DNA of 64,000 bases from Dyella sp. A6 (GTDB lineage Bacteria; Pseudomonadota; Gammaproteobacteria; Xanthomonadales; Rhodanobacteraceae). The stretch is taken from NCBI RefSeq assembly GCF_036320485.1, contig NZ_CP132911.1, positions 3,162,001-3,226,000 of the forward strand, written 5' to 3'. The notes under the pieces were generated by a model, which searched no databases, had not been told where the DNA came from, and was given only the letters and a program-made list of their open reading frames with translations. The position numbers and the translations under genes were made by a program. Below are positions 16,898 through 34,290 of the stretch, in pieces; the first letter of the stretch is position 1, and the number at the start of each line of letters is the position of its first letter.

Positions 16898-18322
16898 ATG
16901 AGCACCGCGATCGTGCTGTTCCGGCGCGACCTGCGCCTGGCCGACCATGCAGCCCTGACGGCGGCATGCGCGGCGCATGCGCATGTCATGCCACTGTATG
17001 TGCATGCACCCGATGAGGACGCGCCCTGGGCCGCGGGCGGTGCCGGCCGCTGGTGGCTGCACCACAGCCTGCAGGCGCTGGACGCGCAGCTGGCCGACCA
17101 GTCCGGTCGGCTGCACCTGGCATCGGGCGACACGCTGGGCGAAGTCCGCCGGCTGGCGCGTGCAGGCAAGGCCGACGCCGTCTACTGGACCCGCCGCTAC
17201 GAACCGGCCGCGATCGCGCACGACACCCGGCTCAAGGCCGCGCTGCGCGCCGATGGGCTGGCCGTGGAAAGCCATGGCGGCAACCTGTGGTGCGAACCCT
17301 GGCAGATCGCCACCGGGCAGGACTCGCCCTACCGCGTTTTCACGCCCTACTGGCGCAAGTTGCGTACCCGGCTCGAACCGGAAGCACCTCTGCCCGCCGC
17401 CCGGCCTGGCCAGTGGCTCACCCAGCCAGACAGCCTGCCGCTGGCCGCCCTGCAACTACTGCCGCGCATCGCCTGGGCCGACGGCCTGGCGCAGACCTGG
17501 CACCCCGGTGAAGCAGGGGCATGGGAATGCCTGGAGCTGTTCGGCGACGATGCCGTGGCCGACTATGCGCACGGCCGCGACCTGCCCGCGCGCCACGGCA
17601 CCTCGCGGTTGTCACCGCACTTGCACTTCGGCGAAATCACCCCGCGTCAGATCCACCACGCGCTGCACACGCAGCATGCGCGTACCGATGCACGGCGACG
17701 ACCGGATATCGAGCCGTATCTGCGCGAACTGGGCTGGCGCGAGTTCGCGCACCACCTGCTGTATCACTTTCCCGACACGCCCAGCGAGCCGTTCGATCCG
17801 CGCTTCGCCACTTTCCGCTGGGCCGACGACGACGATACCGTGCTGCAGCGCTGGCAACGTGGCCGCACCGGCATTCCGCTGGTGGATGCAGGCATGCGCG
17901 AGCTGTGGCACACCGGCTGGATGCACAACCGCGTGCGCATGGTCGCCGCCAGCCTGCTCACCAAGAACCTGCGCCAGCACTGGCACCATGGCGCCCGCTG
18001 GTTCTGGGACACGCTGGTCGACGCGGACCTCGCCAACAACACGCTGGGCTGGCAATGGGTGGCGGGCTGCGGAGCCGATGCAGCGCCCTATTTCCGGGTG
18101 TTCAATCCGTATGCCCAGGCCGCCCGGTTCGACCCGCAGACCAGCTACCTGAAACGCTGGCTGCCCGAACTGGCCGACCTGTCGCCGCGCCTGCTGCACG
18201 AACCCTGGCGCGATCCGGCCGCGCTCACGGCACGTGGCTACCCTGCGCCATTGATCGACCTACCGGCCTCGCGCGATGCCGCGCTGGCGGCCTGGCGTAC
18301 GCTCGCGCCCAAAACTGGCTGA
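16898..18322 (+). CDS. phrB: Deoxyribodipyrimidine photolyase (CPD class I)
   Basis: 474 residues. The N-terminal alpha/beta photolyase domain begins STAIVLFRRDLRLADH. The C-terminal FAD domain carries LRELGWREFAHHLLYHFP, GRTGIPLVDAGMRELWHTGW, MHNRVRMVAASLLTKNLR and DADLANNTLGWQWVAGCG, all conserved. It repairs cyclobutane pyrimidine dimers using blue light. It is convergent with the chrR-rpoE pair and next to the lipid operon. In Rhodobacter sphaeroides a photolyase gene belongs to the RpoE-ChrR singlet-oxygen regulon, which makes this placement meaningful. I found no copy of the TGCATCC-N16-CGTAT motif directly upstream. Confidence 0.95.
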   Translation: MSTAIVLFRRDLRLADHAALTAACAAHAHVMPLYVHAPDEDAPWAAGGAGRWWLHHSLQALDAQLADQSGRLHLASGDTLGEVRRLARAGKADAVYWTRRYEPAAIAHDTRLKAALRADGLAVESHGGNLWCEPWQIATGQDSPYRVFTPYWRKLRTRLEPEAPLPAARPGQWLTQPDSLPLAALQLLPRIAWADGLAQTWHPGEAGAWECLELFGDDAVADYAHGRDLPARHGTSRLSPHLHFGEITPRQIHHALHTQHARTDARRRPDIEPYLRELGWREFAHHLLYHFPDTPSEPFDPRFATFRWADDDDTVLQRWQRGRTGIPLVDAGMRELWHTGWMHNRVRMVAASLLTKNLRQHWHHGARWFWDTLVDADLANNTLGWQWVAGCGADAAPYFRVFNPYAQAARFDPQTSYLKRWLPELADLSPRLLHEPWRDPAALTARGYPAPLIDLPASRDAALAAWRTLAPKTG

Positions 18323-18344
18323 ACGCAGGGCCGGTTGAACGCCC

Positions 18345-18374
18345 TGCATCCAGTCGCGTCGAATCTGCGTATGC
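18345..18374 (+). promoter_or_regulatory. Putative ECF-sigma promoter between phrB and chrR
   Basis: TGCATCC at 18345-18351, then exactly 16 bases, then CGTATGC at 18368-18374. It is the third copy of the bipartite motif found in front of rpoE and of the lipid operon. It points rightward, away from phrB and against chrR, where no protein gene is plausible. An inferred start site would fall near 18380. Confidence 0.55.
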
Positions 18375-18379
18375 ATTCG

Positions 18380-18464
18380 GTGCGCCGATCGACCGGCGCC
18401 CGTCTGCCGGAACCCGCGCCCCCTCTCAAGCGCGCGTCCATCGGGCGGGCGTCCGGTCGGCGCA
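18380..18464 (+). ncRNA. Candidate ECF-controlled structured small RNA
   Basis: Starting about 8 bases after the -10-like CGTAT, a long imperfect stem can form. TGCGCCG (18381-18387) pairs with CGGCGCA (18458-18464), ACCGG (18392-18396) with CCGGT (18453-18457), and CGCCCG (18397-18402) with CGGGCG (18442-18447). The region lies in the convergent gap after phrB, and a longer transcript would be antisense to the chrR 3' end. There is no poly-T terminator, so the 3' end is undefined. High local GC makes chance pairing possible. Confidence 0.4.
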
Positions 18465-18493
18465 CACTCCAGGGATGGCCTCTGCCGCTGCTG

Positions 18494-19165
18494 CTACAGC
18501 CCCACCAGCGGCTGCAGCTTGCGCGCCAGCCAGCCCGGAAAGCGTAGCGGCGCATCCAGCGCGGCCACGCAGATGCACGGCACGCCCGGCACGGTCACCG
18601 GCTGGTGCAGCACATCGCTGTCCAGGTCGGCCACGTCGCCGGGCGCGAAATGACCCAGCGCGTCGCTGTATGCGCCCTGCAGAATCTGGGTCAGCTCGCT
18701 GCGACCATGACTATGCAAGGGCATGCTCTTGCCGGCCGCAATCTTCAGCATGAACAACGATCCGCCACCGCTGCGGCGGGCGCGGATGCAATACATGCCG
18801 GGGGCCATCCAGCGCCACTTCAAGGCGCTCAGCGAGGGGCCGAAATACGGATGCAGCGGTTTCGGCAGGCGATCGGGATCGGCCGACTCCGCATCGTTCT
18901 GCGGTACGGGCGGCAACGCCGGCACTGCATCGTCGAGACGTTCCAGCATGGCGGCACGCAGGCTTTCCCGGCGCGGTGCGTCGATGGTCGCGGCCTGCTG
19001 CTGTTCCACCAGCAGGCCACCGATGCGTTCGGCGTCGCGCACCTGCCGACGGCAGTGCGCGCACACCGACAGATGCGTCGCCACGACCACGCCCAGCTCC
19101 AGCGACAGGGTACCGGCGGCATAGGCCATGACGGTGGACGGATCAAGGTGATGGCATGGTGTCAT
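18494..19165 (-). CDS. chrR: ChrR-type zinc anti-sigma factor with cupin domain
   Basis: 223 residues. The N-terminal zinc anti-sigma domain has His6, His31, Cys35 and Cys38, the same ligand set known for Rhodobacter ChrR. The C-terminal cupin domain (about 125-210) contains PLHSHGRSELTQILQG with the expected His-x-His-x3-Glu and a later His. It sequesters the ECF sigma factor until singlet oxygen or related oxidants trigger its turnover. It overlaps the sigma gene by four bases (ATGA), so the pair is translationally coupled. Confidence 0.92.
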   Translation of the reverse strand: MTPCHHLDPSTVMAYAAGTLSLELGVVVATHLSVCAHCRRQVRDAERIGGLLVEQQQAATIDAPRRESLRAAMLERLDDAVPALPPVPQNDAESADPDRLPKPLHPYFGPSLSALKWRWMAPGMYCIRARRSGGGSLFMLKIAAGKSMPLHSHGRSELTQILQGAYSDALGHFAPGDVADLDSDVLHQPVTVPGVPCICVAALDAPLRFPGWLARKLQPLVGL

Positions 19166-19791
19166 GGCGTCCCCCTCACATCGCCCTGCAGTTTCAGGAA
19201 GGCGCGCCGCAGGCTGGATTTCACGGTGCCCAGGGGCATGCCCAGCTCGTCGGCGATTTCCTGATGACTCTTCGCCTCGAAGTACGACATGCGGATCAGG
19301 CGGGCCTGGATCGCCGGCAGCTTGTCGATGCGGCTTTTCAGATCGACATGCTCGGCATACGACTCCGCCGAGGTGGCGACACCGCTTTCATCGTCCATGT
19401 CCATGCGCTCGGGCTCGTCCAGCACCTGAATCCAGTTCGGCTCCCTGCGCACGCGGTCGATGTGCAGGTTGCGCGCAATGCGGAACAGCCAGGTCGACAG
19501 GCGGCTACGCGACGGGTCGTACATGTCCGCACGCTGCCATAACCGCAGCAGCGCCTCCTGGGCCAGCTCTTCGGCGATCATCTCGGCCGCGCCCAGCCCG
19601 CGCAGGTACAGGCACAGGCGCGGCATGAAGTAGTCGTAGATGCGCATGAAACACTCGCGGTCGCGTGCACGCGCCACCGACAGCATCTCGCTGGTCCAGT
19701 CGCGCGGATCTCTCGCTTGCGGTGTCGGCGTGGACACGATTCGGGTCGCCTCGAAAGGCGACGTGCTCCCAGTGGCGGCATCGGCAGTCAT
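19162..19791 (-). CDS. rpoE: ECF sigma factor, partner of ChrR
   Basis: 209 residues. Region 2 (ECFMRIYDYFMPRLCLYLRG, LAQEALLRLWQRADMYDPSR, STWLFRIARNLHIDRVRR) and region 4 (LPAIQARLIRMSYFEAKSHQEIADELGMPLGTVKSSLRRA) are intact. With ChrR directly downstream it belongs to the ECF11-type group that answers singlet oxygen in Rhodobacter and Caulobacter relatives. Its own upstream region carries a TGCATCC-N16-CGTAT element, which suggests autoregulation. Confidence 0.92.
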   Translation of the reverse strand: MTADAATGSTSPFEATRIVSTPTPQARDPRDWTSEMLSVARARDRECFMRIYDYFMPRLCLYLRGLGAAEMIAEELAQEALLRLWQRADMYDPSRSRLSTWLFRIARNLHIDRVRREPNWIQVLDEPERMDMDDESGVATSAESYAEHVDLKSRIDKLPAIQARLIRMSYFEAKSHQEIADELGMPLGTVKSSLRRAFLKLQGDVRGTP

Positions 19792-19831: not shown

Positions 19832-19861
19832 GAATACGCAAGAAAACGTGCATTGGATGCA
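19832..19861 (-). promoter_or_regulatory. Putative autoregulated ECF promoter of rpoE-chrR
   Basis: On the minus strand, TGCATCC (19861-19855), then 16 bases, then CGTATTC (19838-19832). It lies about 40 bases before the sigma start codon. It is identical in both core elements and in spacing to the element driving the divergent operon. Confidence 0.65.
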
Positions 19862-19903: not shown

Positions 19904-19931
19904 TGCATCCGATTCGTCCTACCAGCCGTAT
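19904..19931 (+). promoter_or_regulatory. Putative ECF promoter of the lipid-modification operon
   Basis: TGCATCC (19904-19910), 16-base spacer, CGTAT (19927-19931), 30 bases before the desaturase ATG. Together with the mirror-image element at 19832-19861 it explains coordinated expression of sigma factor and operon. A further related TGTATCC occurs at 19890. Confidence 0.65.
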
Positions 19932-19961: not shown

Positions 19962-20924
19962 ATGTCCACGCAAACAGTCAACGATGCCGAACGACCGGCA
20001 CGGCGAGGTCAGCTCCGGCGCAGTCTGCGGCAGTGGTTCGATACCGCGTCGACGCCACTGCCGGAAGGAGCCGCCGCCGATCGCATCGACGGCCTGCGCG
20101 CGCTGCCTTTCGCGGTACTGCACCTGGCTTGCCTGGGCGCCATCTGGACCGGCGTGTCCACGGTCGCCGTACTGACCGCGGTCGCGCTCTACGCCCTGCG
20201 CATGTTCGCGCTCACCGGCTTCTATCATCGCTACTTCTCGCATCGCACCTTCCGCACCTCGCGCACTGTGCAGTTCGTGTTCGCGCTGATCGGTGCCGCC
20301 TGCGTGCAGCGCGGTCCGCTATGGTGGGCCGCGCATCATCGCCATCATCATCGGCATGCGGATACCGCCGCCGACCCGCACTCGCCGCAGGTGCACGGCT
20401 TCCTGTGGAGCCACATGGGCTGGTTCCTCACCCCGCGCGCCTTCCGTACCGAGCTCGAACGGGTGCCCGACCTGGCACGATACCCCGAACTGCGCCTGCT
20501 GGACCGCTACGACACCCTCGTGCCGGTATTGCTGGCCGTCGCGCTATACGCGATCGGCACGTGGATGCAGCACATCGCTCCCGGGCTGCACACCAGCGGC
20601 ATGCAGATGCTGGTGTGGGGTTTCTTCATCTCCACGGTGGTGCTGTTCCACGCCACCGTCACCATCAACTCCCTCGCCCACCGGTTCGGCTCGCGCCGCT
20701 TCGACACACGCGACGACAGCCGCAACAACCCGCTGCTGGCAGTGCTGACCTTCGGCGAAGGCTGGCACAACAACCACCATTTCTTTCCGGGCAGCGCACG
20801 GCAGGGCTTCCGCTGGTGGGAAATCGACCTGACCTGGTACGGCCTGAAGCTGATGTCGGCGCTGGGCCTGGTGCATGACCTGAAACCGGTACCGGCCTGG
20901 GTGCTGGCCCGGGCGGAGCATTGA
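19962..20924 (+). CDS. Membrane fatty-acid (acyl) desaturase
   Basis: 320 residues, integral membrane di-iron desaturase. The three histidine boxes are present: HRYFSH at His89, HRHHHRH after the WWAAHH segment, and HNNHH in GEGWHNNHHFFPGSAR. Hydrophobic pairs flank boxes 1 and 3. It introduces a double bond in acyl chains (delta-9-type by overall similarity). It is the first gene of a seven-gene rightward operon and lies 30 bases after an ECF-type promoter, so it is likely induced on photo-oxidative stress. Confidence 0.88.
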   Translation: MSTQTVNDAERPARRGQLRRSLRQWFDTASTPLPEGAAADRIDGLRALPFAVLHLACLGAIWTGVSTVAVLTAVALYALRMFALTGFYHRYFSHRTFRTSRTVQFVFALIGAACVQRGPLWWAAHHRHHHRHADTAADPHSPQVHGFLWSHMGWFLTPRAFRTELERVPDLARYPELRLLDRYDTLVPVLLAVALYAIGTWMQHIAPGLHTSGMQMLVWGFFISTVVLFHATVTINSLAHRFGSRRFDTRDDSRNNPLLAVLTFGEGWHNNHHFFPGSARQGFRWWEIDLTWYGLKLMSALGLVHDLKPVPAWVLARAEH

Positions 20925-20926
20925 CC

Positions 20927-22216
20927 GTGCGCATCGCCGTCATCGGATCGGGCATCGCGGGACTCGCCTCGGCGTGGCTGCTGTCGCGCCAGCATGAAGT
21001 GACCCTGTTCGAGGCGAACGACTACCTGGGCGGGCATACCCACACGCACGACATCGTGCTGGGCGGCAAGCACCTTGCGGTCGACACCGGCTTCATCGTG
21101 CACAACCCGAGCCACTACCCGCTGCTGACCCGGTTGTTCGACGAGCTCGGGGTGGTGTCGAAGCCCACCACCATGAGCTTTTCGGTGCAGCACGAGGCAA
21201 GCGGTCGCGAATACAACGCGACCTCGCTGAATGCGCTGTTCTGCCAGCGCCGCAACCTGCTGTCGCCGCGCTTCCTGGGCATGGTGCGCGACCTGATGCG
21301 CTTCTATCGCGAGGCACCCGCACTGCTCGAGGGTGACGACAATCCGACCCTGGGCAACTACCTCGCCGCCAACGGTTACGGCGACGCCTTCCGCGACGAG
21401 CATCTGGTGCCGATGGCCTCGGCGCTGTGGTCATCGCCACCCACCCAGATCCTGGCCTTCCCCGCGCGTTACCTGGTGCAGTTCATGGCCAACCACCAGA
21501 TGCTGCAGGTGAGCGGACGCCCCGAATGGCGCGTCGTCCGCGGCGGGTCGGCCAACTACGTCCGCGCACTGCGGCGACACTGGCGCGTGCACGAACGGGT
21601 GTCCTGCCCGGTGCATTCGGTCACCCGCCACGCACGGGGCGTCACCGTGTGGAGCCCGATGGGCAACGAGCGTTTCGACCACGTGGTGATGGCCTGCCAC
21701 AGCGACCAGGCGCTGGCCCTGCTCGTCGACCCCGACGAGCGCGAACGCGACGTGCTCGGCGCGATGACCTACCAAACCAACGACGTGGTGCTGCACACCG
21801 ACCATCGTCTGTTGCCCAGGCATCGCAAGGCATGGGCTGCCTGGAATGCATTCGTGCCGGACGACCCCACGGCCCCCTGCACGGTCAGCTACTGCATGAA
21901 CCTGCTGCAGGGCATCGACGCAAGCGAACCGCTGATCGTCACCCTGAACCGCAGCGAGGCGATCGACCCGGCCCGGGTGCTGCGCCGGATGCGCTACCAG
22001 CACCCCGTGTATACCCACGCCGCGGTAGCGGCACAGCGTCGCAAGAGCGAGATCCAGGGCACCCGGCGCACGTGGTTCGCCGGCGCCTACTGGGGTTGGG
22101 GTTTCCACGAGGACGGCATCCGCAGCGCCGTCGAGATCGCCAGCGCATTTGGCATCGACTGGGACAGCACCCCGCCACGGCGCGCCCTGCACCTGGTCAC
22201 GGATACGCCGACATGA
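20927..22216 (+). CDS. FAD-dependent oxidoreductase / desaturase-like flavoprotein
   Basis: About 429 residues. The N-terminus VRIAVIGSGIAGLASAWLLS is a GxGxxG dinucleotide fold followed by VTLFEANDYLGGHTHT, as in flavin amine-oxidase/phytoene-desaturase relatives. The C-terminus WFAGAYWGWGFHEDGIRSAV is the FAD-binding tail. The GTG at 20927 is used, 2 bases after the desaturase stop. In this cluster type the flavoprotein is a candidate for oxidising membrane-bound methylated acyl chains, as UfaD does in furan-fatty-acid synthesis. That assignment is by context only. Confidence 0.82.
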   Translation: MRIAVIGSGIAGLASAWLLSRQHEVTLFEANDYLGGHTHTHDIVLGGKHLAVDTGFIVHNPSHYPLLTRLFDELGVVSKPTTMSFSVQHEASGREYNATSLNALFCQRRNLLSPRFLGMVRDLMRFYREAPALLEGDDNPTLGNYLAANGYGDAFRDEHLVPMASALWSSPPTQILAFPARYLVQFMANHQMLQVSGRPEWRVVRGGSANYVRALRRHWRVHERVSCPVHSVTRHARGVTVWSPMGNERFDHVVMACHSDQALALLVDPDERERDVLGAMTYQTNDVVLHTDHRLLPRHRKAWAAWNAFVPDDPTAPCTVSYCMNLLQGIDASEPLIVTLNRSEAIDPARVLRRMRYQHPVYTHAAVAAQRRKSEIQGTRRTWFAGAYWGWGFHEDGIRSAVEIASAFGIDWDSTPPRRALHLVTDTPT

Positions 22217-22995
22217 GTGAACGGACGCCCCTGCAAAGTGCCGTCTATGAGGGCGTGGTGCGCCATCGCCGGATGGCTCCGCACGCGCACGTATTCGGCT
22301 ACCGCATGGCCCAGCTCTACCTCGACCTGGACGAGCTGGACCAGGTGTTCGCCGGCCGCTGGCTGTGGTCGAACGACCGCCGCAACCTGGCCGAATTCCG
22401 GCGCAGCGACTTCCTGGCGCCGCACGACGTGCCGCTGGCCGAAGCCGTGCGCCAGCGCGTCGAACAGGCCACCGGGCAACGCCCGCAGGGGCCGGTGCGC
22501 CTGCTCGCCCACCTGCGTTACGGCGGCTATGCGTTCAACCCGGTCAGCTTCTATTACTGCCACGGTGCCGACGGCCGCACCCTGGAATGCATCGTGGCGG
22601 AGATCACCAACACCCCGTGGAAGGAACGCCACGCCTACGTGCTGCCGCTGGACGATGCGCAGCGCCGTGGCCGCATGTACGAGTGGCGCTTTGCGAAAAG
22701 CTTCCACGTATCGCCGTTCATGCCGATGCAGCGCGACTACGCCTGGCGCTTCAATGCCCCCGGTGACGATCTGCGCGTCCACATGGACGTGCTGCGCGAA
22801 GGCAACCGCGAGTTCGACGCCGACCTGTGCCTGCAACGCCAGCCGCTGGACAGCGCCGCACTGGCGCGGGTGCTGTGGCGCTATCCGCTGATGACCGCCC
22901 AGGTGATCGGCGCGATCCACTGGCAGGCACTGCGGCTGTGGTTGAAGCGCAATCCGGTCCACGACCATCCACGACTTTCCCGAGGCACGCCATGA
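22213..22995 (+). CDS. DUF1365 family protein
   Basis: 260 residues beginning MSERTPLQSAVYEGVVRHRR, with the DUF1365 hallmarks HVFGYRMAQLYLDLDEL, GYAFNPVSFYYC and AEITNTPWKERHAYVL. The biochemical role is unproven. The family almost always sits between the flavoprotein and a CFA-like methyltransferase, so it probably serves the same lipid modification. It overlaps both neighbours by four bases (ATGA), which indicates translational coupling. Confidence 0.87.
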   Translation: MSERTPLQSAVYEGVVRHRRMAPHAHVFGYRMAQLYLDLDELDQVFAGRWLWSNDRRNLAEFRRSDFLAPHDVPLAEAVRQRVEQATGQRPQGPVRLLAHLRYGGYAFNPVSFYYCHGADGRTLECIVAEITNTPWKERHAYVLPLDDAQRRGRMYEWRFAKSFHVSPFMPMQRDYAWRFNAPGDDLRVHMDVLREGNREFDADLCLQRQPLDSAALARVLWRYPLMTAQVIGAIHWQALRLWLKRNPVHDHPRLSRGTP

Positions 22996-24296
22996 ACGCC
23001 GTTGTCAGCGAAACCTCCAGCGCCGCCTCCAGCGCCGCCTTCGGCGCCATCGACCGCCTGCTCCGCGGCCGCCTGCTCGAACAACTGGGTGCCCTGCGCC
23101 ACGGCCGGCTGCAGGTATGCGACGCACTGGGCGAAGTGATGCTGGGCGAAGGCGACGAAGGCGCACTGCCCACCGTGCGCATCGACGTGCGCGATCCCGG
23201 CTTCTACCGTGCGGTGGCGCGCAACGGCAGCGTCGGTGCCGGCGAAGCATGGATGGATGGCCTGTGGAACTGCAGCGCGCCAAGCATGAGCCCGACCGAC
23301 GCGCTGGTGGTGCTGGTGCGGCTGCTGGTGCGCAACCGCGATCTGCTCGACGGCATGGAAACCGGCCTGGCCCGCCTCGGCGGCATGGCCATGCGCGGCT
23401 GGCACGCCCTGCGCCGCAACACCCTGGCCGGCAGCCGCCGCAACATCGCCGCCCACTACGACCTGGGCAACGACTTCTTCCGCCTGTTCCTGTCCACCGA
23501 CCTGATGTATTCCTCGGCGCTGTGGGACGGCCCCGACGACACGCTGGAAGCCGCCTCGACACGCAAGCTCGACGCGATCTGCCGCCAGCTCGAACTCAAG
23601 CCCGGCGATCGCGTAGTGGAGATCGGTACCGGCTGGGGCGGCTTCGCCGTGCATGCGGCCAGGCATTACGGCTGCCACGTCACCACCACCACCATCTCGC
23701 GCGAACAGTACGCGCTGGCAGCGACGCGGGTGGCCGAGGCCGGCCTGCAGGAACGCGTCACGCTGCGCCTGGACGACTACCGCGACCTCGACGGCCAGTA
23801 CGACAAGCTGGTGTCGATCGAAATGATCGAAGCGATCGGTGCCGCGTATCTCGACACCTATTTCGCCCAGCTCGGCCGCCTGCTCAAGCCCGGCGGCCTG
23901 GCGCTGGTGCAGGCGATCACCATCGAAGACCATCGCTACGAGCAGGCGCTGGCCTCGGTCGACTTCATCAAGCGCCATGTCTTTCCAGGCAGCTTCATAC
24001 CCTCGATCAACGCGATGCTGGCCGCCAAGACCCGTGCCAGCGATCTTGCGCTGGTCGCCCAGCACGACTTCGGCGAGTCGTACGCGCGCACCCTGCAAGC
24101 CTGGCGCGAACGCTTCCTGGCGCGGCTATCGGACGTGCGCGCACAGGGCTTCGACGAGCGCTTCATTCGCATGTGGACGTTCTACCTGGCGTATTGCGAA
24201 GGCGGCTTCCGCGAACGCTCCATCGGCGTCTCGCACCTGCTGATGGCACGCCCGGACTGGCGCCCGGCCAGCGCACGCGACGAGGCGGCCATATGA
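22992..24296 (+). CDS. cfa: Cyclopropane-fatty-acid-phospholipid synthase family
   Basis: 434 residues, the length of full Cfa-type enzymes with an N-terminal lipid-binding domain. SAM motif I is VVEIGTGWGGFAVHAA near residue 208, preceded by NIAAHYDLGNDFFRLFLSTD and followed by SIEMIEAIG. The latter two are conserved active-site segments of cyclopropane synthases. It transfers a methyl or methylene group to unsaturated acyl chains of membrane phospholipids. It starts inside the stop of DUF1365. Confidence 0.9.
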   Translation: MNAVVSETSSAASSAAFGAIDRLLRGRLLEQLGALRHGRLQVCDALGEVMLGEGDEGALPTVRIDVRDPGFYRAVARNGSVGAGEAWMDGLWNCSAPSMSPTDALVVLVRLLVRNRDLLDGMETGLARLGGMAMRGWHALRRNTLAGSRRNIAAHYDLGNDFFRLFLSTDLMYSSALWDGPDDTLEAASTRKLDAICRQLELKPGDRVVEIGTGWGGFAVHAARHYGCHVTTTTISREQYALAATRVAEAGLQERVTLRLDDYRDLDGQYDKLVSIEMIEAIGAAYLDTYFAQLGRLLKPGGLALVQAITIEDHRYEQALASVDFIKRHVFPGSFIPSINAMLAAKTRASDLALVAQHDFGESYARTLQAWRERFLARLSDVRAQGFDERFIRMWTFYLAYCEGGFRERSIGVSHLLMARPDWRPASARDEAAI

Positions 24297-24826
24297 ATTT
24301 CTGGGTTGCCCTGATCGCCTACGAAGTGGTCTGGTTCGTGGCCGTGATCGGCGCCGGCCACGGCCTCGGCTGGCCGGGCGTGCTGGCCGCGGCGCTGTTC
24401 GTCGGCTGGCGCCTGGCGGTCTCCAGGCAGCGTGCGGTGGAGCTTCGCCTGGGCATCGTCGGGTTGATCGTCGGCCTGCTGCTGGAAGCGGCGTGGACTG
24501 CGGCGGGGCTGGTGCACTACGCGGCGGCATGGCCGGCGCAGGCGGCACCGGCGTGGCTGATCGCGCTGTGGGTGACGTTCGCCTTCACCATCGTGCCGCT
24601 GTTCGGCTACCTGCATGACCGCCCGTGGCTGGCGGCGCTGTTCGGTGGCATCGGCGGCCCGCTGGCCTACCTGGGCGCCGCACGCGGCTGGCATGCGGTG
24701 ACGATGGCGGTACCGGCATGGCACACGCTGGCGGCGCTGGCCGCGGGTTGGGCGATCGCGCTGCCGCTGCTTACCTCGCTCGCGCATCACTGGCTGCAGC
24801 CCACGGCCACGGAGCGTGCCGCATGA
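24293..24826 (+). CDS. DUF2878-like inner-membrane protein
   Basis: 177 residues, highly hydrophobic, about five membrane segments, starting MNFWVALIAYEVVWFVAVIG and containing LLLEAAWTAAGLVHYA and FGYLHDRPWLAALFGGIGGP. It fits the DUF2878 family, which travels with CFA/DUF1365/DUF1295 genes. It overlaps the genes on both sides by four bases. Function unknown, presumably in lipid remodelling. Confidence 0.75.
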   Translation: MNFWVALIAYEVVWFVAVIGAGHGLGWPGVLAAALFVGWRLAVSRQRAVELRLGIVGLIVGLLLEAAWTAAGLVHYAAAWPAQAAPAWLIALWVTFAFTIVPLFGYLHDRPWLAALFGGIGGPLAYLGAARGWHAVTMAVPAWHTLAALAAGWAIALPLLTSLAHHWLQPTATERAA

Positions 24827-25620
24827 ATTCCTGGCTGGCCCTGTTGCTGGTCTGGCTGGTGGTGGCCGTCGCCATGACCGCCGGCTGGCGCTGGCAGCAG
24901 CGCCGTCGCAACGCCGGCATCGTCGACGTGCTGTGGTCGTGCGGGCTCGCCTTCGGCGCCGTGGCACTGGCGGCACTGGGCCGTGGCGCTGCTGCACCGC
25001 GGCTGGTCCTGGCCGTGCTCGGCGGATTGTGGGGACTGCGCCTGGCGCGTCACCTGTGGACACGGGTACGCGGCGAGAACGAAGACGGCCGCTATCGCCA
25101 GTTGCGCGCGCAGTGGGGTGACGGCGGCGCCCGCTGGTTCGCCTTCTTCCAGTTCCAGGCCTTGCTGGTGGCGCTGTTTGCATTGCCGTTCGTGGCCGTG
25201 GCCGGCAACCCGCACACGCAACCGGGCTGGCTGCTGACCGGCGTGCTGATAGGCCTGGTCAGCGTGGTCGGCGAGTCGACGGCCGACGCGCAGCTGGCAC
25301 GCTTCCGCGCGGACCCGGCGCAGCGTGGCTACACCTGCCGCAGCGGTCTGTGGCGCTACTCGCGCCATCCCAACTACTTCTTCGAATGGCTGCACTGGTT
25401 TGCCTACGTAGCCCTGGCGCACGGTGCTCCGCTGGCCCCGCTGGCATGGCTGGGCCCGGTCGTCATGTACATCTTCCTGCGCTGGCTCAGCGGCATTCCC
25501 TGGACCGAGGCGCAGGCCCTGCGCAGCCGCGGCGAGGACTACCGCGAATACCAGCGCACCACGCCGATGCTGATTCCCTGGTTTCCGCGCCGCCCGCAAG
25601 TCACGAGGAGCGAGTCATGA
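24823..25620 (+). CDS. DUF1295 family membrane protein (steroid-reductase-like fold)
   Basis: 265 residues with about seven membrane segments. The C-terminal block GLWRYSRHPNYFFEWLHWFAY and RSRGEDYREYQRTTPMLIPWFPR is diagnostic for DUF1295, related to steroid 5-alpha-reductases and isoprenylcysteine methyltransferases. It could reduce or methylate a lipid intermediate. It overlaps DUF2878 and the following methyltransferase by four bases each. Confidence 0.85.
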   Translation: MNSWLALLLVWLVVAVAMTAGWRWQQRRRNAGIVDVLWSCGLAFGAVALAALGRGAAAPRLVLAVLGGLWGLRLARHLWTRVRGENEDGRYRQLRAQWGDGGARWFAFFQFQALLVALFALPFVAVAGNPHTQPGWLLTGVLIGLVSVVGESTADAQLARFRADPAQRGYTCRSGLWRYSRHPNYFFEWLHWFAYVALAHGAPLAPLAWLGPVVMYIFLRWLSGIPWTEAQALRSRGEDYREYQRTTPMLIPWFPRRPQVTRSES

Positions 25621-26699
25621 GCACTGCCACCCTGGACCGGACCGAACTAATGTCCGACCGCGCCGCCCCCGGCCTGCTTGGCCTGGCCGAACGCGGGCTG
25701 CTGCCCGACGTACTGCTGCGCTGGGGCATCCGCCAGCTGTGTTCGCAGCGCCTGGTGGCCGAACGCGCCAGCGGACCCGAGCGGCAGGCGCTGCGCTTCG
25801 CCCGTCTGATCGACGGCTTGCGCCAGAGCCCGATCGCGATCCACACCGACGCCGCCAACGCGCAGCACTACGAATTGCCGGCCGCCTTTTTCGAGCACTG
25901 CCTGGGCCCGCGCCTGAAGTATTCCTGCTGCTATTACCCGCAAGGCAACGAAACGCTGGAGGAGGCCGAAGAGGCCATGCTGGCGCTGTACGCCGAACGG
26001 GCCGAGCTGGCCGACGGCCAGGACATCCTCGAACTGGGTTGCGGGTGGGGCTCGCTGACCCTGTGGATGGCCGAACACTATCCGCGCGCGCGCATCGTCG
26101 CGGTGTCCAACTCGCACAGCCAGCGTCGCCACATCGAGGCGCAGTGCCGCGCACGCGCGCTGCGCAACGTGATCGTGCTGACCCAGGACGCCAACACGCT
26201 GGACCTGGAAGCGGCACGCTTCGACCGCTGCGTGTCGGTGGAGATGTTCGAACACATGCGCAACTACGAGAGCCTGCTCGGCCGCATCGCGCAGTGGCTG
26301 ACGCCGGGCGGCAAGCTGTTCGTTCACATCTTCGCGCACCGCACCCTGATGTATCCGTTCGAAACCGAGGGCGAGGACAACTGGATGGGCCGGCACTTCT
26401 TCACCGGCGGCCTGATGCCTTCCACCGATACCTTGCTGTGGTTCCAGCGCGACCTGAAGATCGAGCAGCGCTGGCTGGTCGACGGCACCCACTACCAGCG
26501 CAGCGCGGACCAGTGGCTGGCACGGCAGGACGCACAACGCGACGCGGTAATGGCGGTGTTGAAGGAGGCCTACGGTCCGCATGCCAGGCTGTGGTTCCAG
26601 CGCTGGCGCATGTTCTGGATGTCCTGTGCCGAGCTGTTCGGCTACGACCACGGGCACGAGTGGATGGTCGCCCATTACCGCTTCACGCGCGAAGCCTGA
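25617..26699 (+). CDS. Second CFA-like SAM-dependent methyltransferase
   Basis: 360 residues. SAM motif I is DILELGCGWGSLTLWMAEHY near 138. It keeps CFA-family features (EHCLGPRLKYSCCYYP, SVEMFEHMRNYESLL, FVHIFAHR) but lacks the longer N-terminal domain of the upstream cfa product and differs around the active site. It probably methylates a different lipid position or substrate. GAGGAG lies 7 bases before the ATG, inside the end of DUF1295. Confidence 0.85.
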   Translation: MSTATLDRTELMSDRAAPGLLGLAERGLLPDVLLRWGIRQLCSQRLVAERASGPERQALRFARLIDGLRQSPIAIHTDAANAQHYELPAAFFEHCLGPRLKYSCCYYPQGNETLEEAEEAMLALYAERAELADGQDILELGCGWGSLTLWMAEHYPRARIVAVSNSHSQRRHIEAQCRARALRNVIVLTQDANTLDLEAARFDRCVSVEMFEHMRNYESLLGRIAQWLTPGGKLFVHIFAHRTLMYPFETEGEDNWMGRHFFTGGLMPSTDTLLWFQRDLKIEQRWLVDGTHYQRSADQWLARQDAQRDAVMAVLKEAYGPHARLWFQRWRMFWMSCAELFGYDHGHEWMVAHYRFTREA

Positions 26700-26720
26700 G
26701 TTGCCCCCCACGGAGTACCC

Positions 26721-27299
26721 ATGAAACTGTCGCGCCTGTTCGCCACCCCCTGGTTCACCGCCCTGCTGCTGGTCGGCGGCTGTGCCCACGCCAGCCAGCC
26801 GATCCCGCCGGTGGCGCATGTCGATCTGTCCCGCTACATGGGGCGCTGGTACGTCATCGCCTCGATCCCCACGCGCTTCGAGCGCGGCGGTTACAACCCG
26901 GTGGAAACCTACAAGCTGGACCCTGACGGCCGCGTCTGCACCGCCTTCCGCTTCCGCCCCGGCAGCTTCAGCGCACCAGTGAAGAAGATCCACTCGATTG
27001 CCAGCGTGGTGCCGCACACCGGCAACGCCGAATGGAAAGTGCACTTGTTCTGGTTCCTGCGTGCGCAGTACATCGTGGCGTGGCTGGCACCGGACTACAG
27101 CAAGGTGATCGTGGCCCGCGACAAGCGCGACTACGTATGGCTGATGGCACGCACCCCGCATGTCTCCGAAGCCGATTACCAGGCCATGCTGGCGCGGGTG
27201 AAAGCGATGGGCTACGACATGTCGAAGCTGCAGAAGGCACCGCAGCAATGGCCCGAGGCCCAGCCGACGCCCGACTCGTTCATCCCGTCCTGCGACTGA
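26721..27299 (+). CDS. blc: Bacterial lipocalin (Blc-like lipoprotein)
   Basis: 192 residues. The signal peptide ends in the lipobox LVGGC, so this is a lipoprotein. The lipocalin motif GRWYVIASIPTRFERG, the central DGRVCTAFRF segment and the C-terminal ARDKRDYVWLMARTP strand are conserved. It is predicted to bind lysophospholipids or modified fatty acids at the outer membrane. It follows the methyltransferase after 21 bases and is the likely last gene of the stress-lipid operon. Confidence 0.88.
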   Translation: MKLSRLFATPWFTALLLVGGCAHASQPIPPVAHVDLSRYMGRWYVIASIPTRFERGGYNPVETYKLDPDGRVCTAFRFRPGSFSAPVKKIHSIASVVPHTGNAEWKVHLFWFLRAQYIVAWLAPDYSKVIVARDKRDYVWLMARTPHVSEADYQAMLARVKAMGYDMSKLQKAPQQWPEAQPTPDSFIPSCD

Positions 27300-33894: not shown

Positions 33895-34290
33895 GGAGGG
33901 AGAGCGTCGAGCAGCGCGCGATTGAATGCCGTCAGTGTTCCGATCGAAGCGCGCTGCAGCAACTGCGGCGCGCCTCTTTGAACAACGAAGTGCCCTGGCA
34001 TCCGGATCAACGCCGTTATCCGGATGCCAGGGCACTTCGTTGAGTATCCGTGGTGGCTCGACTCAGTCAATCAGGTTGCTCCGCTTCCTGACGTACGTGT
34101 TGATCATTGCGACGGCTCGGCGCTTTCACTGCTGAACTCAAAGTAGATTTCAAAATGCAGTCTAATACAGCAGCATAATCCTGAAAATCAGACCTCAAGC
34201 CAAGCTTGAGGCATACATAAATCAATGACTTATTCTTTTCTCCGCAGCCTAACTCGACAACCTAATCCCACTATGCTTTTTGCCAGTCAC
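33895..34290. other. Former attI/intI side of the array, no gene
   Basis: On the minus strand the sequence leading into the long attC reads as a short C-terminal peptide (RASIGTLTAFNRALLDALPP), probably the remnant of a further cassette gene cut by the inverted repeat at 33983. No integron integrase or attI site is recognisable. From 34043 to 34290 the DNA is AT-richer with a small hairpin (CCTCAAGC/GCTTGAGG, 34193-34211) and no gene. Confidence 0.5.
33983..34042. repeat. Perfect 25-bp inverted repeat with 10-base loop
   Basis: Left arm 33983-34007 (CAACGAAGTGCCCTGGCATC...), right arm 34018-34042, fully complementary. The loop contains a further AACG-C-CGTT mini-stem. No T-run follows on either strand. 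It sits at the upstream edge of the cassette array. Confidence 0.9.

Follow-up and report, generated by a model that had tools for sequence, protein, structure and literature searches.

In Dyella sp. A6, the third copy of a sigma-E/ChrR-type promoter motif, located between phrB and chrR, is probably a still working-looking sigma-E (ECF11/ChrR-type) promoter left behind by a departed operon, and not part of a dedicated small-RNA gene. The basis for this reading is the motif itself, its position, the order of genes in relatives and a set of genes at 2.88 Mb of the same genome. The locus was analysed within a window of 64,000 nt (the whole stretch of DNA studied; contig NZ_CP132911.1, positions 3,162,001–3,226,000), for which a sequence-only reading had proposed a small RNA induced by singlet oxygen; the promoter, the stem and a predicted sigma-E start near 18380 survived our analysis, whilst a dedicated small RNA with antisense feedback on chrR gained no support. 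The features concerned are listed in Table 1.

Table 1. Features of the phrB–chrR–sigma neighbourhood, in window coordinates
Feature	Position	Strand	Basis
phrB, photolyase/cryptochrome-family protein, 474 aa	16898..18322	+	Pfam FAD_binding_7, DNA_photolyase; ORF
Short hairpin GCAGGGC-N9-GCCCTGC	18325..18347	+	Read from sequence; 2 nt 3' of phrB stop
Orphan sigma-E/ChrR-type promoter TGCATCC-N16-CGTAT	18345..18372	+	Exact motif; faces chrR 3' end
Stem formed by a long, imperfect, GC-rich inverted repeat; neither side has a U-run	18381..18464		Folding
chrR, ChrR-family anti-sigma factor	18494..19165	-	TIGR02451 and Cupin_7 above cut-off
ECF sigma factor, ChrR partner	19162..19791	-	Sigma70_r2, Sigma70_r4_2, TIGR02937
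Sigma-chrR operon promoter	19834..19861	-	Exact motif
Promoter of desaturase/oxidoreductase/Cfa/lipocalin operon	19904..19931	+	Exact motif
Lipocalin ending the desaturase operon	26721..27299	+	Lipocalin_2; ORF

Scanning the window for the exact motif TGCATCC-N16-CGTAT gave three copies, which are the three promoters of Table 1, and none in 100 shuffles. Across the 3.72-Mb genome four exact copies were present, as opposed to none for a reversed-pattern control, with the fourth found at about 2.88 Mb (G000:C1:2883345–2883372, minus strand). When two mismatches were allowed the window held five matches against 5.0 expected, which is chance level, and so only the exact copies carry weight. The orphan copy has both hexamers at a fixed spacing in common with the sigma-chrR operon promoter, and the cognate ECF sigma factor and ChrR-family anti-sigma factor are encoded in the same genome. 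Additionally, its core ATCC-N16-CGTA is identical to that of the RpoE promoter of the Rhodobacter sphaeroides small RNA Pos19, TGATCC(N15)GCGTA in the accessible text of PMC5036791. A sigma-70 promoter in this region was considered and rejected, as a program scan gave no support. The motif ends 121 nt from the chrR stop codon, and no ORF with both a start and a stop faces chrR within this gap, bearing out the sequence-only claim that the third copy has no protein gene ahead of it. A sigma-E-dependent transcript beginning near 18380 is a fair prediction, and transcription from the orphan promoter is likely. With regard to its upstream neighbour, the matches of phrB to the NCBIfam photolyase models fell below their cut-offs.

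The gene order of congeners indicates what such a promoter would once have served. In a genus set of 15 genomes, that of the window and eight others hold both chrR and phrB, and in seven of these eight (G004, G007, G008, G009, G010, G011 and G013) the motif lies 3' of phrB with a lipocalin gene directly ahead of it, in the same place and direction as the orphan copy. The gap from the phrB stop codon to the motif is 16–17 nt in the seven, versus 22 nt in the window. Behind the lipocalin gene, a membrane-protein gene follows in five of the seven, a photolyase-related protein (Pfam DPRP) also in four and folE (GTP cyclohydrolase I) also in two, all directed towards chrR. In detail, G010 and G011 carry lipocalin, membrane protein, DPRP and folE; G004 and G007 have the first three; G013 has lipocalin and membrane protein only; G008 retains a lipocalin, with 56 residues left of the membrane protein; and G009 has the lipocalin alone. 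The operon behind phrB shrinks stepwise across the congeners, down to none in the window, which has the same type of promoter as the others, pointing the same way and at a similar distance from the phrB stop, but unlike them holds none of the operon's protein genes at this place. In the eighth congener, G002, phrB lies ∼13 kb from chrR and no motif was found in the 1.5 kb 3' of phrB. The membrane protein had no Pfam or NCBIfam match; 'TspO-like' is a tentative label for it.

The missing genes are in part found elsewhere. The fourth motif of the genome (2.88 Mb; loci L002, L112 and L118) precedes a membrane protein, DPRP and folE in the same order as in congeners, this set being situated 0.3 Mb from phrB–chrR, and the photolyase and folate genes there are predicted to belong to one ChrR-type regulon. 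The lipocalin is less straightforward, the nearest one to the orphan promoter being that which closes the adjacent desaturase operon. A second lipocalin exists in seven of the eight congeners, and in G013 it is located 6.7 kb behind the desaturase, as is the lipocalin of the window; judged by this position, the phrB-linked copy would have been lost. A tree gave the window lipocalin an intermediate place, with the phrB/folE-linked group on one side and the remaining copies on the other. The phrB-linked lipocalin may thus have been either lost or moved, with position favouring loss and the tree placement being intermediate. Several of the second lipocalin copies of congeners (L127, L129, L130, L131, L133 and L136) are interrupted within the match by a stop codon.

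From these observations, the likely ancestral layout would have placed the promoter behind phrB and before lipocalin, membrane protein, photolyase-related protein and GTP cyclohydrolase I, reading towards chrR. In this lineage the operon would then have been lost or relocated, its last three genes presumably being those now found with a motif of their own. Upon release of the sigma factor by ChrR, polymerase would start at about 18379–18380, yielding a short, strongly structured, non-coding RNA that is probably unselected. The stem, if of any use, would most likely act as a hairpin in which the phrB and sigma-chrR transcripts, converging on each other, both end. We also searched the 121-bp stump for remnants of the lost genes and found none at protein (p 0.05–0.97, eight tests) or DNA level (p 0.16–0.75, six tests), the stretch being short. 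A leader common to the congeners looked promising when aligned by hand and was dropped, as shuffles were unsupportive (global p 0.07–0.93; best of seven ungapped p 0.013). With neither remnant nor leader, descent is argued from position and gene order alone.

In order to place this arrangement in a wider setting, we compared 59 chrR loci including that of the window, some of them near-duplicates (L039, L040 and L041); 54 of the 59 had at least 1.5 kb 3' of chrR; the other five were too short and were omitted. The motif, in a looser pattern, faces chrR within 6.5 kb in 25 of the 54. A lipocalin gene lies between motif and chrR in 15 of these 25, namely the seven congeners and eight loci outside the genus (Thermomonas, Stenotrophomonas and unplaced MAGs), three of which have all four genes. 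Eight other loci also have a motif facing chrR (L017, L027, L029, L032, L044, L045, L054 and L057). The window was the sole locus without a facing ORF, yet it also has by far the shortest gap, and the count required a stop codon inside the gap, thereby missing genes that overlap chrR, as seen in L029. In that locus the motif is followed by an ORF of 613 residues, and the ends of this ORF and of chrR overlap. In the Stenotrophomonas loci L027, L029, L032, L044, L045 and L057 the motif faces chrR from about 1.8–2.1 kb downstream.

Beyond the genus, four of 30 phrB loci (L072–L101), namely (L075, L086, L087 and L092), carry the motif 60–130 nt 3' of phrB, followed in L092 by a desaturase gene. 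A counter-layout was seen in G110 (L111), where chrR and phrB are convergent and ∼45 bp apart, and the interval is empty of both motif and genes; a weaker motif match is found there before phrB itself. The nearest relative by anti-sigma factor (86 % identical), L015, has neither phrB nor motif within 4 kb 3' of chrR and is therefore uninformative on the stem. In this locus, from MAG REEB105, sigma and anti-sigma factor are 86–88 % identical to those of the window, whilst two phrB copies elsewhere in its genome are 74 % and 71 % identical, a mismatch that may be due to transfer or to a mixed bin.

The long stem that had been described about 8 bases after the -10 element was found as stated, starting 8 nt after the -10 element of the orphan motif. 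From the three blocks of pairing proposed for it, the outer TGCGCCG/CGGCGCA arm was recovered, whilst the remaining predicted pairing differs in detail. Compared with shuffled sequence, as had been suggested, the stem holds up, with a minimum free energy of -55.7 kcal/mol, a z-score of -4.53 and none of 200 shuffles equally good. For the longer 128-nt stretch 18373–18500 the z-score was -2.67 (1 of 200 shuffles equally good), and for 18375–18496 on the opposite strand it was -2.36. In a plus-strand scan of 2132 segments of 85 nt, the stem had the lowest energy but only the 13th best z-score (-4.29), and 17 segments reached -4 or below. No Rfam match at gathering score was found in the window. 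The short hairpin next to phrB covers the first three bases of the orphan promoter's -35 element, and falls inside 18319–18403, the stretch with the lowest z-score 3' of chrR, which takes in the end of phrB and the motif but reaches no further than the first part of the stem. The candidacy of the stem as a repeat element was rejected: the 141-bp stretch has one genome match (E 0.001), and 14 further copies of an 18-nt stem arm, all with three mismatches, compare with 42 for the reversed control. The strongest fold in the whole scan, with a z-score of about -9, is located at ∼33961–34045.

What, then, of a stress-induced small RNA that has been selected as such? This would be a hairpin RNA of ∼85–130 nt, acting on targets in trans, or on chrR in cis if transcription reads on. 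The exact promoter, the low energy and the start of the stem at the predicted +1 speak for it, as does the precedent of Pos19, which, in the portions of PMC5036791 available, combines the same ATCC-N16-CGTA spacing with the lack of a poly-U run and a one-species range. We nevertheless regard such a selected RNA as unlikely, as a search of 233 family and 398 order genomes for homologues of the stretch gave, besides its own genome, nothing better than short matches with E-values of 2.7e-4 or weaker (in five family and seven order genomes; two to three candidates were scored per genome). Furthermore, the stem is absent from the seven congener leaders, where 85-nt folds from the same point gave z-scores of 0.04 to 1.4, so that neither sequence nor structure appears to be kept by selection in the family, the order or the congener leaders; the promoter at the same position in relatives precedes protein genes; and the scan shows no terminator-like site. 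Conservation of motif and stem, on which the earlier proposal had staked itself, was hence divided: the motif is kept, with a protein gene behind it, whilst the stem is not, in a set that has no close relative at DNA level. No homologous stem was found for a covariation analysis. The proposed antisense feedback on chrR gained no support, given that congener promoters precede lipocalin genes, their leaders lack the stem, and 29 nt separate the end of the stem from the chrR stop codon, which makes antisense contact dependent on read-through of the hairpin. The conservation tests went against a small RNA, but Pos19 is itself narrow in range and devoid of a U-run; this reading consequently becomes less likely but stays a candidate. 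A related idea is that of a small-RNA gene being born, in which the retained sigma-E promoter would have captured a hairpin after the operon left, and the resulting RNA, made under stress at the 3' end of sigma-chrR, would adjust the anti-sigma factor either through collision or through antisense pairing; this we hold to be improbable.

The stem might alternatively have no link to the promoter and be a hairpin shared by the 3' ends of the convergent phrB and chrR, marking the transcript end or blocking exonucleases, which we consider possible, if somewhat doubtful. The stem is flanked by the stop codons of the two convergent genes and can fold on either strand, and strong folds (lowest z-score -4.3 or below) within 229 nt 3' of chrR occur in 9 of the 59 loci, the window counted, the other eight being Thermomonas or MAG loci that are in some cases closely related to one another. 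On the other hand, 50 of the 59 loci lack so strong a fold, the lowest z-score of the window covers only the first part of the stem, and the U-run is missing on both sides; with a GC stem but no U-run, and an empty terminator scan at this site, the structure does not qualify as an intrinsic terminator. Such a hairpin can be compatible with a promoter stranded by the departure of its operon. Very improbable, by comparison, is a short peptide, for example from a leaderless frame that would start with GTG at 18380 and extend into the antisense strand of chrR: an open frame is present there and Pos19 is a coding small RNA (PMC5036791, in the text accessible), but no homologue of the stretch was found in the genomes searched, chance often keeps GC-rich antisense frames open, and no ribosome site was seen. 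The preferred explanation, a promoter left behind by its operon, accounts for where the promoter lies, which way it points, the gene order and the absence of the genes, and does not require a role for the stem. Against a relic is the point that the match to the motif has stayed perfect; a dead relic need not have kept it so.

Amongst known systems, the R. sphaeroides sigma-E and Stenotrophomonas maltophilia sigma-Ec (ECF11) systems, like that of the window, pair an ECF sigma factor with a ChrR-family anti-sigma factor, and the promoter core is shared with Pos19; the orphan copy differs from the promoters of both in having no gene behind it. As described in the part of PMC5036791 available, Pos19 (RSs0019) is an RpoE-dependent RNA of 219 nt, confined to its species, with mapped ends; its terminator has no poly-U run, its small ORF is translated, it binds Hfq and its targets are known. 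The two resemble each other in that an RpoE-type promoter precedes a transcript which is structured, limited to one species and free of a poly-U run, and which in the window is a predicted one; they differ in that Pos19 has its mapped ends, small ORF, Hfq binding and targets, whilst the window element is known from sequence and was compared by promoter core and Rfam. Among the matches listed for the open-access literature, in titles and the beginnings of abstracts, no ChrR-linked small RNA appeared for this bacterial group. Moreover, the S. maltophilia pair, according to the accessible text of PMC11832516, barely contributes to singlet-oxygen tolerance and matters for superoxide, and the inducer at the present locus is therefore not to be taken for granted.

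The locus represents a case of a stress regulon that was apparently rearranged whilst a promoter stayed in place. Here it could be tested cleanly whether a promoter for an alternative sigma factor, once orphaned, gives rise to a regulatory RNA or just fires to no purpose. A further lesson is one of caution, since finding a motif together with a hairpin in the gap of two convergent genes is insufficient for calling a small RNA. For annotators, a photolyase–folate–lipocalin operon with predicted ChrR-type control can be noted in this group.

As to the neighbouring operon, the desaturase/cfa operon of S. maltophilia, with a lipocalin last, was up 165- to 697-fold in a chrR mutant (165-fold for that lipocalin), and its induction fell back in a chrR rpoEc double mutant (RNA-seq performed once; PMC11832516, in the sections available). 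It adjoins the sigma gene with a desaturase–oxidoreductase–Cfa–lipocalin content, as in the window. The Stenotrophomonas loci of our set carry the motif before the sigma gene. In the window, 19962–27299, 3' of a sigma-E motif, contains a desaturase, an FAD oxidoreductase, small membrane-lipid genes, two Cfa-type methyltransferases and the lipocalin, names which apart from the last are a reading of the ORFs, and this row resembles smlt2375–2367 of S. maltophilia.
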